Source of the DNA: Pseudobdellovibrionaceae bacterium
GTDB lineage: Bacteria; Bdellovibrionota; Bdellovibrionia; Bdellovibrionales; Bdellovibrionaceae
DNA length: 34,749 nucleotides
Direction of reading: 5' to 3'
Assembly (NCBI GenBank): GCA_019637955.1
Contig: JAHBUS010000006.1
Coordinates: 1-34,749 of the forward strand
This document shows, one piece after another, positions 4,928-13,407 of the stretch. The notes under the pieces are model-generated. The model searched no databases. It was not told the DNA's origin and worked only from the letters and a program-made list of their open reading frames with translations. Numbering within the stretch: the stretch's first letter is position 1; each line of letters begins with the position of its first letter. The position numbers and the translations under genes are program-made.

Positions 4928-5554
4928 TCAGGATTTAAACTGCGGATGAGAGCGGAACCACGCCAAGAAATCGGACTGCTTGTCCGAGGGCGCAATTTCA
5001 AGACGCGTTTTGGCGTGCTTCTGATCTTCGGCGAGTGAACACATGAGCTCGAGTTGCCGCCCGTTTTCAACCGTCATCACCAGCGTCGTGTAGCCCGCCA
5101 CCCAATCCGGAACGGGGTCCTTGATGCGCAGGCCCCCTTCGCTGAGATCCAGCACGCGCGTGTCAAACTCCTGCGTGCCCGAAATGAGCTTGGCCGGATA
5201 GTCGACATCGAAGCGGTTGAACTTACGGGTCACGAATGGCGTCTCGGCTTTGACCGGACGGACCGCGGTGATCTCGGAATCGTAATCTTGGATGGAGGCG
5301 ATCACGGGCGCTTTGATTTTAACCACGCGCGTGTGCAGAAGCTCTTCGCATTCGGCATCACGCAAAGGCTTCCAGACGGCCCAGCCCGGCTTCCAGACAA
5401 GAACCGTCGCTTTTTCGGAGTCGCGCAAGGTCTCAAGAATCACCCGGGCTTCGTTGGTCGAAAGGTCATGGACGGTCCAATTGTGAAAATCACAATTCAG
5501 GGACCAGGATCCGTCCTTGCCGTTCAAAAGCTGCTTCACCCAGGCTGCAAACAT
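4928..5554 (-). CDS. PilZ-domain protein with N-terminal GYF_2-like domain
   Basis: A 208-aa cytoplasmic protein, probably a cyclic-di-GMP effector. The C-terminal half is a PilZ domain with both ligand motifs intact: RKFNR (RxxxR, about residue 108) and DLSEGG (DxSxxG, about residue 137). The N-terminal part (about residues 27-75) looks like a GYF_2/DUF4339 module. Its hallmark is LVWKPGWAVWKPL, close to the usual VWxxGMxxWxP pattern; these modules are thought to bind peptides or partner proteins. There is no signal peptide or membrane segment. The start lies 6 bp after the stop of the upstream coiled-coil gene, so the two are co-transcribed. What the protein controls is not visible here. 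Confidence is high for PilZ and moderate for the GYF_2-like call. Confidence 0.88.
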   Translation of the reverse strand: MFAAWVKQLLNGKDGSWSLNCDFHNWTVHDLSTNEARVILETLRDSEKATVLVWKPGWAVWKPLRDAECEELLHTRVVKIKAPVIASIQDYDSEITAVRPVKAETPFVTRKFNRFDVDYPAKLISGTQEFDTRVLDLSEGGLRIKDPVPDWVAGYTTLVMTVENGRQLELMCSLAEDQKHAKTRLEIAPSDKQSDFLAWFRSHPQFKS

Positions 5555-5560
5555 CTTGGA

Positions 5561-6853
5561 TTACTTTTTCTTTTTGTCGGACTTTTTCTTGGTCGTTTCT
5601 TTTTTGGCGCTCGCCGGTGCCTTCGAAGACGCGGTGGGTTTGGTGTCAACCACGTCGGCTTCGGCCTTCGACGATTTCATCAGGGCGCGGGTCTCGGCCT
5701 TGATTTTCTCGGTTTCGATGCGCATGCGTTCGGCATCGAGTTCGGCCTTGAGCGTCTCGCCCTTGAGTTTCGACGATTCGAGATTCTGCGCGCCTTTTTC
5801 AACGCCGTCTTTCAAACGCTCACGCTCGGCTTTCGCCTTTTCGATTTCGGCTTTGAGCTTGTCGCTCTCGGCGTTCACGCGTTGCATTTCGTTTTGCTGT
5901 TCGCCCATCTGTTTATTCAGGCGCGCGATTTCGTTCTGCATGGTCGCCAGGTCTTTGGCGTTGGCGGCCCGCGACTTCTCGGCTTCGTTTTTTGCTTTCA
6001 GCAAAGCCTGACGGGATTTGTCTTCTTCTTTTTTCAGAGCCTCGAGTTTTTTGCGCTCAACCTCGAGTTGGCCGCGGACTTTTTCGAGTTCGCTTTGAGT
6101 GGCCTTCATCTCTTCGCCGCTCTTCTTGGTCTCGAGCTCCGATTTTTCGGCCTGAGCCTTGAGCTTGGCGATTTCGCCTTCGGCACGTGCCTTTTCGGCC
6201 TCGGCCTTGCTCTGCTCGGCTTTCGCTTTCGCCGCATTGGCTTGCGCCAGGGTCACGGCTTTTTGCGTGTTCAATTTTACTTTTTCGTGATCGCGCGCGA
6301 CTTCGGCTTCTTTTTGTTTGGCCAGCGCCGCGGCTTTCAACGCGGTTTCGGCTTCTTCTTGCGCGGCTTTGGCTTTTTTCTCTTCTTCAACCGAAAGCGC
6401 ACGGACCTTTTCGGCTTCCGCTTCCGCCGTTTTGCGGCGGGCTTCGGCCTCATCGCGGAGTTTACGCGATTTTTCGCGTTTGTCCTGCAGAGCCGAGATC
6501 TGCTTGTTCAACAGGTTCTGCTTTTCTTCAGCCAATTTCTTTTGTTTGTCGAACTCGTCGCTCTCGTTTTTATGACGGGCCATTTCTTTTTCGGCCTGAG
6601 CGTGTTCTTGCTTTGATTTTTCTTCTTCGTTTTTCGCTTTGGCGATGGCCGACTCGGCCTGCGCTTTGGCGAGTTCACGCCGGCGCTTTTCGTCTTCGGC
6701 ACGGCGTTTGGCATCTTTGGCCTCGGCTTGGGCCGCTTCGGAATCGGCGATGGCCTCTTCGGCCTCGATCGATTTGTCTTGGGCCTGAGCCACGTAAGGC
6801 GTTGCGGAAACAGAGAGCAGAAGTACGAATGCCATCAAGATGTGCCGGCGCAT
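5561..6853 (-). CDS. Secreted long coiled-coil protein (TolA-like composition)
   Basis: A 430-aa exported protein of unknown function. A signal peptide covers residues 1-24 (cleavage after AQA). A nearly uninterrupted, highly charged Ala/Lys/Glu coiled coil follows from about 25 to 385. The tail of about 45 residues is Ser/Ala/Lys-rich and ends in runs of lysine (KKKSDKKKK). The composition resembles the helical domain of TolA and other periplasmic rods, but no globular domain is visible. A strong Shine-Dalgarno GGGAGGA sits six bases before the ATG. It heads an operon with the PilZ gene 6 bp downstream, which hints at a structural role under cyclic-di-GMP control; that link is inference. The basic tail could bind an acidic surface or polymer. 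Confidence 0.85.
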   Translation of the reverse strand: MRRHILMAFVLLLSVSATPYVAQAQDKSIEAEEAIADSEAAQAEAKDAKRRAEDEKRRRELAKAQAESAIAKAKNEEEKSKQEHAQAEKEMARHKNESDEFDKQKKLAEEKQNLLNKQISALQDKREKSRKLRDEAEARRKTAEAEAEKVRALSVEEEKKAKAAQEEAETALKAAALAKQKEAEVARDHEKVKLNTQKAVTLAQANAAKAKAEQSKAEAEKARAEGEIAKLKAQAEKSELETKKSGEEMKATQSELEKVRGQLEVERKKLEALKKEEDKSRQALLKAKNEAEKSRAANAKDLATMQNEIARLNKQMGEQQNEMQRVNAESDKLKAEIEKAKAERERLKDGVEKGAQNLESSKLKGETLKAELDAERMRIETEKIKAETRALMKSSKAEADVVDTKPTASSKAPASAKKETTKKKSDKKKK

Positions 6854-7035
6854 GAAGTCCTCCCAGAAGTCTTTTTATTCATTTGACCATATCTCATCGG
6901 CGCTTTCCACGAACACAGGACCCCCCTGGGCGCACTTTTGGCGGCCCTGTTTAAAACTTCGTCGCTGCGTCTCCACTTCCGGCGCGGTTCCGGGGGAACT
7001 GATTCGATATTGAACCCAATTCGACAAACTTCCGG

Positions 7036-7052
7036 CTGGCCTCGACCTTGCT
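7036..7052 (+). promoter_or_regulatory. Sigma-54-type -24/-12 promoter
   Basis: CTGGC-N7-TTGCT matches the RpoN core consensus (YTGGC-N7-TTGCW), with the invariant GG (7038-7039) and GC (7050-7051) separated by exactly ten bases. The central ACG of the full consensus is not matched. Transcription would start near 7063, only about 12 bases before the terminator hairpin. The match is from reading the sequence, and no activator site was identified. Confidence 0.5.
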
Positions 7053-7062
7053 CTAGTGAATG

Positions 7063-7114
7063 GTACCCCCCCATAGCGGTCTGGTATCCCCCCCCACCAG
7101 GCCGCTTTTTTTTT
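7063..7114 (+). ncRNA. Candidate ~52-nt C-rich small RNA (or attenuated leader)
   Basis: The stretch between the sigma-54-like start point and the end of the T-tract would be a very short transcript. It has an unpaired 5' part containing seven Cs, then an 11-bp hairpin whose 10-nt loop carries eight Cs, then a U-tract. C-rich loops are the targeting element of several known bacterial regulatory RNAs that pair with G-rich Shine-Dalgarno sites. Several genes in this window have such sites (GGAGGGGG at the subtilase, GGGGGAG at the upstream trypsin, AAGGGGG at glpK). The alternative is a transcription attenuator for the downstream amidase operon. Seen: promoter motif, hairpin and C-runs. Inferred: that it is an RNA gene and how it acts. 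Confidence 0.45.
7075..7114 (+). terminator. Strong plus-strand intrinsic terminator with no gene in front
   Basis: An 11-bp stem (7075-7085 with 7096-7106; one G-U pair) encloses the 10-nt loop ATCCCCCCCC and is followed by T9. This is a textbook rho-independent terminator, directional on the plus strand. The nearest upstream plus-strand gene ends more than 3 kb away, so the terminator must serve an unannotated transcript or regulate read-through into the amidase operon. Confidence 0.85.
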
Positions 7115-7193
7115 GCCCTCCGAAGGTCTCCCTCTCGCAGTTCTGGTCTGATCAACAAAAGCCCACTGAGTTTATTCTTGAAGAATGCACCCG

Positions 7194-9322: not shown

Positions 9323-10276
9323 TCAACGCGCGCCCGGGACCGGGCGCCGCGAAAGATTGGCAGGCCCCGTGCCCCGCACGTCATCGTCGTTGGGGGTTTG
9401 GCCATTCGCGAGCGTCTCGATCAGGTGCTGGCGGCCCGTCAGGTGCACCCCAAACGTGTACGGACTCTCTGCTTTTTTACAGCGCTCGATCCCCGACACT
9501 TCGGCGCGGTTCACGGTGCTCGCACGGTGAACGCCGCGCAGGCACGCCTTGGAGCCATCGTAATGAATGATGCCGCCCCCCGAATCGCCGCCGCAAGGAC
9601 GGTTGACGTTGTCGGGCCTCGCCGAGAGCGTCCGGCCGTTATTGTCGACGGTGTAACCCAAATCCAAATACCGCAAGGGACTGTTGTCGCCCGAAGGATC
9701 TTCGTTCGAGATGCCCGAGCCCACCATCACGGTCCGGCCATTTTCGTAGTTGCCGCCCGGATCGCAAACCGGAATGGGCCGCACGGCTCCCGCCGGGCGC
9801 GAAAGCACGCCCACGGCCACATCGCACGAGTTGTCGTAGCTCGGAACGTCGCGGCCGCAAGCCGTGGTCACCCTCGAAAGGGGAATTGTTGTTTTCTGGC
9901 CCGTGCGCGGGTCGGTGATTTCAACCAAGTACTCGCCCGCCTCATCGCCCGTCAGGCGCTGCTTGTCGAAGCAGTGACCCGAGGTCACCACGCGTGAAGT
10001 GGAGGTCAAGGTACCGCTGCAAACAAATTCGGGAGCGGCACTCATGCCGCCGACTTTGCGCGCCTGAAGAATGCGAACCGAGGCGCTGCGGAGAAGATTG
10101 TCGAGTTGGCGGTCGCGTCCCGGGCCCGGCTGAACGGGCTGCCCGCCGAGAACCACGGGGTGCGCAAGATTCGGCGTCGAGCTGCGAATCGCGCTCGCCC
10201 CCGCCGTGGCTCCGGGCAGCGCCATCACCCGCGTCGCCGCCAGCAGTCCGATCAGGAAAATCGTCGTTCGAATCAT
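9323..10276 (-). CDS. Secreted trypsin-like serine protease, downstream paralogue
   Basis: A 317-aa exported S1-family protease. A signal peptide (about 19 residues) is followed by a low-complexity linker and the protease domain. The triad is visible as His in TSGHCFD (about 100), Asp in SCDVAVGV (about 151) and Ser in GGDSGGG (about 232). The motif reads GDSGGG rather than the usual GDSGGP. Paired cysteines suggest disulfides formed outside the cytoplasm. Its ATG overlaps the stop of the upstream paralogue by four bases, so the two are translated together. The two proteins align along their length, including the SNED, TLSA and CLRGVH stretches, and share a short Arg-rich C-terminal tail, which points to a tandem duplication. 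The substrate is unknown. Confidence 0.92.
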   Translation of the reverse strand: MIRTTIFLIGLLAATRVMALPGATAGASAIRSSTPNLAHPVVLGGQPVQPGPGRDRQLDNLLRSASVRILQARKVGGMSAAPEFVCSGTLTSTSRVVTSGHCFDKQRLTGDEAGEYLVEITDPRTGQKTTIPLSRVTTACGRDVPSYDNSCDVAVGVLSRPAGAVRPIPVCDPGGNYENGRTVMVGSGISNEDPSGDNSPLRYLDLGYTVDNNGRTLSARPDNVNRPCGGDSGGGIIHYDGSKACLRGVHRASTVNRAEVSGIERCKKAESPYTFGVHLTGRQHLIETLANGQTPNDDDVRGTGPANLSRRPVPGAR

Positions 10277-11220
10277 CGAGCCCCCGCCGAAGTGCGAGGG
10301 GTGTTTGCCTGGGGAACCACCCGTCCCGTTTCTTCATCGCTCGGGGTCTCACCCGAGGCGAGTTTGGACACGAGGTGGGCGCGTCCCGCCAGATTCACCG
10401 CGTACGTCACGGGGTTCTTGGCTTGACGGCAAGATTCCGCCGCGCTTAAGCCCGGCCGGTCGTTGACTTGACTTCCGCTATGAACGCCGCGAAGGCAGGC
10501 ACGCCCCTTCTCGATGTACAAGACGCCGCCGCCCGAGTCTCCCGAGCAGGGCCGCTGCGTCCCGCTCACCGGCGCAGAGAGCGTCCGCGGGTTTCCCAGG
10601 GTTTCTCGGTACTCGAGTTCCAAAAATTTGAGAGGGCTGTTCTGCGCGGACTCGTCTTCGTTCGAGAGGCCCGATCCCACAATGAACGAACGCCCCTTCG
10701 TGAAATCGATTCTTTCGCAGACGGCCACCGCGCGGCCCTCGGGCACCGACTTGGTGAGTGTCGCCACCGCGACATCGCAAGTGTTTGCCGCGAATTCCAA
10801 GGCAGGAGGACAGGCGCCCGTCACGCTCGCGAACGGAATCAAAGTGATCTTGCCGGTTTGCGGGTCGACGACTTCGGCAAGGTACTTGGCGGCCCCCGCT
10901 CCCGATATCTTTTGCTCATCAAAGCAGTGCGCGGCGGTGACGAGCTGGTTGGCCTTGGCCAGGGTCGCGCTGCAAGCGAACGACGTGCGGCCCGTGACGG
11001 GGTTTTTCATCAAAATGCGAACCGAGGCGCCGCGAATCAAACGTTCGATGTTTTGATCGCCTCCGGGCTTGGCCTCGGCGCCGCCGATCACGTTCACAGC
11101 GCCGTCAAAACCGGGAGTCCCGGTGGCCGGCAGGGTCACCGCCACGAGCGCGAGCAGGCCCAAGAAGAAAAACACCTTGCGAACCGTGCGTTTGAATTTT
11201 GTCTTAAAATGGGACGGCAC
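10273..11220 (-). CDS. Secreted trypsin-like serine protease, upstream paralogue
   Basis: A 315-aa exported S1-family protease and first gene of a two-gene operon. A basic N-terminus (FKTKFKRTVRK) and hydrophobic stretch form a signal peptide or signal anchor. His in TAAHCFD (about 98), Asp in TCDVAVAT (about 149) and Ser in SGDSGGG (about 228) make the triad. Like its neighbour it has Gly where most trypsins have Pro after GDSGG. The start is a GTG, supported by a strong Shine-Dalgarno GGGGGAG seven bases upstream. It is divergent from the nuclease gene, sharing a 127-bp promoter region. The pair differ clearly, so the duplication is not recent. Confidence 0.92.
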   Translation of the reverse strand: MPSHFKTKFKRTVRKVFFFLGLLALVAVTLPATGTPGFDGAVNVIGGAEAKPGGDQNIERLIRGASVRILMKNPVTGRTSFACSATLAKANQLVTAAHCFDEQKISGAGAAKYLAEVVDPQTGKITLIPFASVTGACPPALEFAANTCDVAVATLTKSVPEGRAVAVCERIDFTKGRSFIVGSGLSNEDESAQNSPLKFLELEYRETLGNPRTLSAPVSGTQRPCSGDSGGGVLYIEKGRACLRGVHSGSQVNDRPGLSAAESCRQAKNPVTYAVNLAGRAHLVSKLASGETPSDEETGRVVPQANTPRTSAGAR

Positions 11221-12014: not shown

Positions 12015-13199
12015 CTATTGGGTGAGGAGAACGCGTGAGCACTGAGGTTTTTGCGAGCGCCCGAACAAGCGCCGGATCACGCTAAAATCGAGGCTCTCAC
12101 GGCGTGGACCGCCATTGCGGTAGCTGGCATCGTCGCCGCCCCCGCCGCCAAACCAAACAAAGTCGACGCCGCGGTTGTAACGCCCGTGATTTTGCCACTC
12201 GCCATCGCGGGCCTGCCCGGAAGCATCGAGATACAAGGTGTACTTGATATTCACTTGCTTGGCGATCTCACCCGCAGCCACGCGCTCGCGCGTTTCCAAG
12301 TTGCTCTCGACGATATCGATTTCTCCGAGAGTTTCGAGGTATCCCTTCACGGTCACTTTTGATTTTGCCCAGGGACGGCCGCGGCGCTCCTCCGGCGTCA
12401 ACTCTTCGGGAGCCGACACCTCGCGTTTGTAGCCGATCACGCTCTCATTCCAAATTTCGCTTCCCAGATGCGAGTCGATGACGAACGCCTTGCGCTTTTC
12501 ACCGACGAAGAAACGTAAAATCAAGTCGAAGGCGGCGGCGTTGGGCTGGCTTTCGTGACGGCCCTCACGGCTCGGAGCTCCCATCTGCGCGTACTTCTCG
12601 ACGTAAAAATAGGAGGCGCCACTGAGCGCCTTTAAGTCGGCGGGCTCGAACAAAATGCGAATGCCGTCAGGGTTCGTCATCACCACCGGGTATTTGGGCT
12701 CGCGCAAGTTGATCCCCGCGCAGCGCACGCCATTGCAAAAACCTTCCCAACTTTCGGGTTTCATGTCGCGGCGGGGGCCTCGGTTTTGGAGTTCGTACTT
12801 GGTCGCCGGAAAATCATAACGGCCGCGCAAGAGGTCGTATTTTTCGACGGGCGAGAGTTGGGCGATCAGGCTGGGGGACATGTTTTGAAAATGCTCGCGG
12901 GTGTCGCCGACTTTATCGCCACTCCGAATTTGTGTCGACGGCGTTTGCCAACGGTGCGCGATCCCGCCATCGGCCATGGGAAAGTAGTTTCCGGCCCAAG
13001 GGGCGCGATCGGGACCCAAGCGGTACTCTTGGCGGCCGCGCGTGGGATCCTGGAACTTTTCCAGGTCGCGGTCCGAGAAGCGCGAGAACTGCAGGGCGTA
13101 GCGCAGACTCTTCAGATCGGTTTCAAAATCCCCGGCGGCCGAAAGGGCCGGCAAGAAAAGACAAATGGCCGCGAAGAAAAGTCTGCTTTGAATTCCCAT
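12015..13199 (-). CDS. Secreted protein resembling the transglutaminase-elicitor (GP42-type) family
   Basis: A 394-aa exported protein. A signal peptide (MGIQSRLFFAAICLFLPALSAAG) leads a single long domain. Features that recall the TGase_elicitor family are APWAGNYFPMADGGIAHRW near the start, then WEGFCNGVRCAGI with a candidate catalytic Cys (about residue 153) and a downstream EP. Further on, VIDSHLGSEIWNESVIGY offers a candidate Asp and His (about residue 240). Members are secreted cross-linking enzymes first known from Phytophthora. The assignment is by motif memory, not a search. I start at the ATG at 13199 because the signal peptide begins there. A GTG at 13304 would add 35 residues and block signal-peptide function. 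It is divergent from the next secreted protein. Confidence 0.6.
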   Translation of the reverse strand: MGIQSRLFFAAICLFLPALSAAGDFETDLKSLRYALQFSRFSDRDLEKFQDPTRGRQEYRLGPDRAPWAGNYFPMADGGIAHRWQTPSTQIRSGDKVGDTREHFQNMSPSLIAQLSPVEKYDLLRGRYDFPATKYELQNRGPRRDMKPESWEGFCNGVRCAGINLREPKYPVVMTNPDGIRILFEPADLKALSGASYFYVEKYAQMGAPSREGRHESQPNAAAFDLILRFFVGEKRKAFVIDSHLGSEIWNESVIGYKREVSAPEELTPEERRGRPWAKSKVTVKGYLETLGEIDIVESNLETRERVAAGEIAKQVNIKYTLYLDASGQARDGEWQNHGRYNRGVDFVWFGGGGGDDASYRNGGPRRESLDFSVIRRLFGRSQKPQCSRVLLTQ

Positions 13200-13407
13200 A
13201 GAAAGAGGTCTTTCCAATTTCGGGGCCGCCGGTCCCGCCGCCGGAAACATCACACTGTTGGAAAACCCGGCTCTGATCCGGGAGGTGACGCTCGTGTTTG
13301 GCACCCGTCAAAAACTTCGACGGCCGAAATGGTCCTGGGCGGCGGCGGTCCGGGTGCGAATCTTGATGGAGGCCTCTCGTCCACGGCATTCACCTTGGGA
13401 GGATGAA

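Follow-up and report, generated by a model that had tools for sequence, protein, structure and literature searches.

The locus examined here raises the question of whether a sigma-54-type promoter that runs almost directly into an intrinsic terminator marks a small RNA (sRNA) gene in its own right or belongs to the genes that surround it. The window, i.e., the whole stretch of DNA that was analysed, comprises 34,749 nucleotides of a Pseudobdellovibrionaceae bacterium genome. We consider it probable that the locus is a stand-alone sigma-54-driven sRNA gene, the C-runs of which block G-rich Shine-Dalgarno (SD) sites. Its features are as follows.

6948–6964, plus strand: weak activator-site-like dyad TGTTTAAAACTTCGTCG with 3 mismatches, 89 nt before the -24 box
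7037–7040, plus strand: -24 element TGGC of a sigma-54-type promoter, read directly and kept jointly with the -12 element in 48/56 loci
7048–7051, plus strand: -12 element TTGC of the same promoter, read directly and conserved across loci
7063–7113, plus strand: predicted RNA of ~51 nt, with the start placed by the spacing from the -12 element and the end inside the T-run; matched by the covariance model
7066–7072, plus strand: C7 run, located in the unpaired 5' tail and the first of two candidate seeds (C-run of at least 5 in 53/56 loci)
7075–7085, plus strand: 5' strand AGCGGTCTGGT of an 11-bp stem, from folding and covariation
7086–7095, plus strand: C-rich loop ATCCCCCCCC, second candidate seed (loop C-run of at least 5 in 51/56 loci)
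7096–7106, plus strand: 3' strand ACCAGGCCGCT of the 11-bp stem, from folding and covariation
7106–7114, plus strand: T9 run closing the intrinsic terminator, read directly and conserved in alignments

The promoter is read directly as CTGGC (7036–7040) and TTGCT (7048–7052) separated by seven bases, with GG at 7038–7039 and GC at 7050–7051, and thus has the exact GG-N10-GC spacing to which the earlier note had drawn attention; the predicted +1 in the window is G7063. The coordinates also bear out its description of an 11-bp hairpin with T9, a C7 in the 5' part and a C8 in the loop. The C8 occupies 7088–7095 within the 10-base loop, and the first T of T9 (7106) pairs with A7075. Folding gave a minimum free energy of -21.3 kcal/mol versus -11.1 ± 2.1 for shuffled sequences (z = -4.85). 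Our terminator scan, which allows loops of up to 8, did not report this hairpin with its 10-base loop. In the ORF listing, no credible plus-strand gene was found between 3776 and 7185, in agreement with the claim that none precedes the element for 3 kb; the nearest upstream gene (5561–6853) lies on the minus strand.

In a blastn search with positions 7000–7184, 57 of 100 relatives were matched, each at a single place, and the aligned stretch contains both the promoter and the RNA and stops at about the T-run. A covariance model was built from the RNA part alone (7062–7113, 29 sequences, promoter excluded); the window RNA scores 71.6 bits with it over the same positions. The model, which implements the search in relatives proposed by the earlier note, matches 112 of the 144 genomes of class Bdellovibrionia, representing 53 of 69 genera, while it found nothing in 17 of the 106 class genomes of good quality. 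Beyond the class, it found only one marginal match (E 1e-4) in 225 genomes of the phylum, and this one is devoid of the promoter. An exact pattern scan of the genomes of 84,980 species (257 Gb) yielded 50 stretches; nearly all have Bdellovibrionales, Bdellovibrionia, Pseudobdellovibrionaceae or Bdellovibrio in their titles, among them Bdellovibrio bacteriovorus strain kdesi. A match in Salinisphaera UBA6602 (L153) is GC-rich, lacks the anatomy of the RNA family and was judged to be due to chance.

Alignment of 56 loci revealed that 94% of the cells are paired and that 8 of the 11 pairs are altered on both sides; none of 500 shuffles performed as well, and slid controls were far worse. This alignment was fitted to the covariance model, and an independent MAFFT alignment of 29 sequences agrees with it. 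C-runs of 5–10 are kept in both unpaired parts while the remaining tail and loop drift, and across genera the RNA lengths fill the range of 48 to 65 nt almost without gaps. The promoter, the hairpin and the C-runs, the loss of which in relatives had been named as grounds for giving up the idea, are retained (promoter in 48/56 loci, C-runs in 53/56 and 51/56).

As for the promoter, a match in a single sequence proves nothing, since TGGC-N7-TTGC occurs three times within the window alone versus 1.8 expected. Conservation lifts it far above chance: TGG[C/T]-N7-TTGC is present within 45 nt upstream in 48/56 loci versus 2 of 1984 control windows drawn from the same loci as the RNA. The looser GG-N10-GC is found upstream in 52/56 loci (it is missing from the other four) versus 191/1984 controls. 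Since the model excludes the promoter, its presence upstream tests the model matches independently, at any rate in those genera that blastn did not find. The position 12 bases beyond the C of the -12 element, i.e., the predicted +1, is a G in 31 of the 48 loci with the strict promoter. RpoN is encoded by 130 of the 144 class genomes, including the window's own (G000:C3:57345-57824); as it is nearly universal in the class, its co-occurrence with the RNA is uninformative. By comparison across loci, the RNA gene together with its promoter is well supported. The proposal that a short RNA is encoded here, under a sigma-54-type promoter of its own and closed by an intrinsic terminator, is supported by this conservation and by the covariation of the stem.

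In the window's family (f1), we found a dyad, TGTCnAAAnnYTnnACA (TGTCnAAAn5nACA), upstream of the RNA. It shows on average 2.05 mismatches versus 4.4 in control stretches, and 0–2 in most family relatives, a contrast which is partly circular because the pattern was derived from the same sequences. Measured from the -24 box, the dyad lies at a distance of 57–58, 68–70, 78 or 89 bases, and these spacings are helically phased (R 0.91 at 10.5 bp; equalled by 0 of 20,000 random sets). Spacing was not used in finding the dyad, and the genomes are related rather than independent, yet four distinct spacings are represented. Because they differ by helical turns, the sites lie on one face of the helix, a placement that would be as expected for an enhancer-binding activator. 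The degenerate copy in the window itself is the weakest part of the activator-site claim, and the dyad was not seen upstream of the RNA in another family of the same order (f4).

These features suggest the following course of events. The RpoN (sigma-54) holoenzyme would occupy the -24/-12 promoter of the RNA gene, and a putative enhancer-binding activator, bound 58–89 bp upstream in the window's family, would fire it on a signal. The RNA would start near 7063 and stop ~50 nt later at its own terminator hairpin, which would double as a regulatory domain. Each of the two exposed C-runs, in the 5' tail and in the loop, could pair with G-rich SD sites (G4 or more), and such pairing would block ribosome loading without Hfq. 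We infer the transcription and accumulation of the RNA, the activator and its signal, the repression and the identity of the target. Hfq (PF17209), the hallmark of Hfq-dependent sRNAs, was found in none of 21 class genomes, in a search in which positive controls were matched in 5 of 14 control genomes; pairing would therefore need to be chaperone-free or to use another protein.

The window's own genome has 74 occurrences of G6-N3-9-ATG versus 15 for the reversed control, a ~5-fold excess in a count in which overlapping registers are scored more than once. An excess of G7 runs was likewise observed in the majority of ten further genomes. Many of the family f4 loops (L093, L103, L104, L107 and L110) contain CCUCCUUA, the anti-SD sequence of the 16S rRNA 3' end, which hints at SD sites as the partners. 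The RNA thus possesses what is typical for an anti-SD sRNA, namely unpaired seeds that are conserved and can base-pair with G-rich SD sites. The G6 excess, the family f4 loops and one conserved G-run site lend indirect support to the anti-SD idea.

Candidate targets were chosen by a G-run pattern search. Two ortholog pairs recur in the resulting lists: an AIG2-like gamma-glutamyl-cyclotransferase (PF06094) and an ECF sigma factor. The ribosome-binding site (RBS) of the AIG2-like gene has a G-run of 4–7 in all 18 family f1 sequences read; 16 of these were not used for picking the gene, and 13 of the 16 have a run of at least 5. Beyond family f1, the run is retained in 2 of 5 cases. For genes around the RNA, RBS G-runs of at least 5 occur in only 4 of 236 cases. 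The mean duplex energy with each genome's own tail or loop is -15.5 kcal/mol for the AIG2-like gene versus -6.8 for surA. The AIG2-like gene is the best candidate target, which the RNA would be predicted to repress, although its conserved G-run could instead reflect strong translation alone. Two other candidates were rejected: surA, which has a G6 site in the window's own genome but mostly runs of 2–3 elsewhere, and the ECF sigma factor, the CAGGGG of which is retained in about half of the family's genera and absent in Bdellovibrio. The regions upstream of the ECF sigma gene (L390–L416) share a conserved TTAACCGAAA...CGACAggggnGAGTC block, which has the appearance of a separate conserved promoter with its dyad.

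The C-rich sRNA might act through something other than RBS pairing, for instance as a ligand of a KH- or cold-shock-type protein or as a sponge for another G-rich RNA. The persistence of C-runs in both unpaired parts, despite drift elsewhere, would suit such a role, as a protein sponge would likewise carry two C-runs. We regard it as unlikely given the many G-run RBSs, the agreement of the family f4 loops with the 16S anti-SD and the gene with a conserved complementary site in family f1.

The neighbour genes form an amidase (PF01520)-rph-rdgB operon. According to tblastn synteny, it directly follows the RNA on the same strand in the window and in 42 of 55 relatives' loci, as would suit the competing reading put forward in the earlier note, an attenuator of this operon. 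In such a leader, transcription of the operon would begin at the sigma-54 promoter, and the hairpin would halt it until a signal permits read-through. This reading fails on the same synteny: a cis-acting leader would always lie 5' of the operon and be co-oriented with it, whereas the RNA is divergent from it in Bdellovibrio (L064, L065) and in L085. At L068, L080, L083, L084 and L113, amidase, rph and rdgB are all absent within ~5 kb, and at L072 and L110 another gene intervenes between the RNA and the operon. Of the remaining loci, L105 lacks the amidase, and L087 and L092 end at contig ends. Promoter, hairpin and C-runs persist in most loci separated from the operon, and it is not apparent why an attenuator would require conserved C-runs in both the tail and the loop. 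Since it is divergent from, separated from or found without the operon at these loci, the RNA is not part of it. Attenuation as a general function appears largely refuted and is, in our estimate, quite improbable; read-through could still feed the operon where it is adjacent. At the level of sequence comparison, an RNA gene under selection is shown, as are its stem, its C-runs, its sigma-54-type promoter and its independence from neighbours.

The perfect intrinsic-terminator anatomy would also be accounted for if the locus were only a strong, conserved terminator or an insulator separating divergent genes, the sigma-54-like site being fortuitous. We find this very improbable, because the upstream gene is often directed away, leaving nothing to stop, the promoter is kept far more often than in the control windows (48/56 versus 2/1984) and the tail C-run, superfluous for termination, is conserved. 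A short coding gene, for which open stretches on both strands and nothing further can be cited, may practically be dismissed, as the lengths of 48 to 65 nt are not in multiples of three and a conserved start codon is absent.

Across 17 genomes, the combination dyad-N35-65-sigma-54 box was found at 23 places and its reversed control at one; nine of the 23 are the RNA gene itself, and most others are located shortly before a gene, often one encoding a signal peptide or lipoprotein signal. Signal-peptide enrichment among the G-run-SD genes or at the activator's other promoters (P 0.15, 0.03 and 0.06, with a crude predictor and a background of 33%) is suggestive only. It is conceivable, if rather doubtful, that the RNA is a core riboregulator of a sigma-54/activator regulon shaping the envelope and secretome, in which the activator of secreted proteins would also make a chaperone-free RNA with two interchangeable C-runs that dims mRNAs with G-run RBSs.

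The dyad was noted before two kinds of gene. It directly precedes, with a sigma-54 box, a small secreted-protein gene conserved in Bdellovibrio (G006:C1:3358598, G033:C1:641060 and G036:C1:3156856; L442, L423 and L435), a promoter which probably belongs to the same regulon. In the window's own genome, a perfect dyad TGTCGAAAACTTCGACA and a sigma-54-like box (G000:C8:400503-400584, L429) lie immediately upstream of a gene whose secreted product resembles a trypsin-type protease.

With regard to known RNAs, an Rfam search gave nothing at gathering level, only weak matches to 6C, P31, ar14, ncS54 and others, and a literature search found no other report of this C-rich RNA. Several small regulatory RNAs, namely GlmY/GlmZ, Qrr, CrcZ and NrsZ, are driven by an RpoN promoter with an upstream activator site. 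The window RNA shares with sigma-54-dependent sRNAs a conserved -24/-12 promoter and RpoN in the genome; those RNAs are longer, several act with Hfq, Crc or RapZ, and no sequence relation to them was found in Rfam. The alphaproteobacterial ar14 resembles the window RNA in its C-rich seeds of the anti-SD type but is longer and comes from another class, and the score for ar14 (RF02344) was 16.7 bits versus 58.8 required. In RepG of Helicobacter pylori, the loop of the terminator hairpin serves as a C/U-rich seed that targets a G-repeat within a 5' UTR; compared by description, RepG is similar in this respect and differs in lineage, size and promoter.

What the window RNA has in common with 6C/B11 is that C-runs of at least six are exposed and free to pair. 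Mycobacterial B11 represses a reporter with a six-G tract in its 5' UTR, and either C-rich loop suffices (PMC10470900). The title of the 6C report of Mai et al. (2019), cited in PMC10470900, declares independence from RNA chaperones, which is what the window RNA would need without Hfq. Yet 6C/B11 RNAs occur in Actinobacteria and have two stem-loops with C-rich loops, whereas the window RNA, ~51 nt long with a sigma-54-type promoter, consists of one such stem-loop and a free C-rich tail; it scores 23.2 bits (E 0.27) with 6C (RF01066) versus 47 required. It represents a new class-wide sRNA family that, by analogy, most likely works like 6C/B11 or ar14 and is a member of neither.

Within the same bacterial class, the attack-phase sRNAs of B. 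bacteriovorus HD100 (APsRNA1-7 and merRNA) are also intergenic but differ in size (98–655 nt) and conservation: they were reported to be without homologues in other genomes. Some have FliA promoters. The hit-locus sRNA of B. bacteriovorus is 261 nt long, and the published set derives from attack-phase or host-independent cells. The published HD100 lists, compared by size and conservation rather than by coordinates, contain no species of ~50 nt; the attack-phase list was restricted to intergenic regions upregulated more than 4-fold in that phase, and short RNAs are prone to being missed.

Hunting alternates with growth in Bdellovibrio predators, whose RNA regulation is poorly understood. The locus would provide an RNA gene that is class-wide and has a predictable switch, sigma-54 together with an activator site, as well as a defined size and position and a list of candidate targets, and it offers a concrete, conserved promoter for RpoN in these bacteria. 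It may also represent a natural minimal sRNA design that functions without Hfq, in parallel to mycobacterial 6C.

Other C-rich hairpins were noted along the way. Second, distinct ones, with a C-run tail, a C-rich loop and a TTTTTCTTT tail, lie at ~5000 in L117 (G013), L118 (G039) and L119 (G030), from Bdellovibrio (genus g7) and one relative. In L118 and L119, the hairpin appears to lie downstream of a coding region, as in a 3' UTR, and L117 has TGGC-N7-CTGC upstream; possibly, the three represent a paralogous C-rich RNA. At L120 (G115), ~4950–5045, clustered C5–C7 runs accompany a C-loop hairpin, and the same genome has an ordinary copy (L121). Elsewhere in the window, 12015–13304 on the minus strand encodes a protein that contains a transglutaminase-elicitor domain (PF16683); two trypsin-like proteases are encoded nearby (9323–11220, minus strand).
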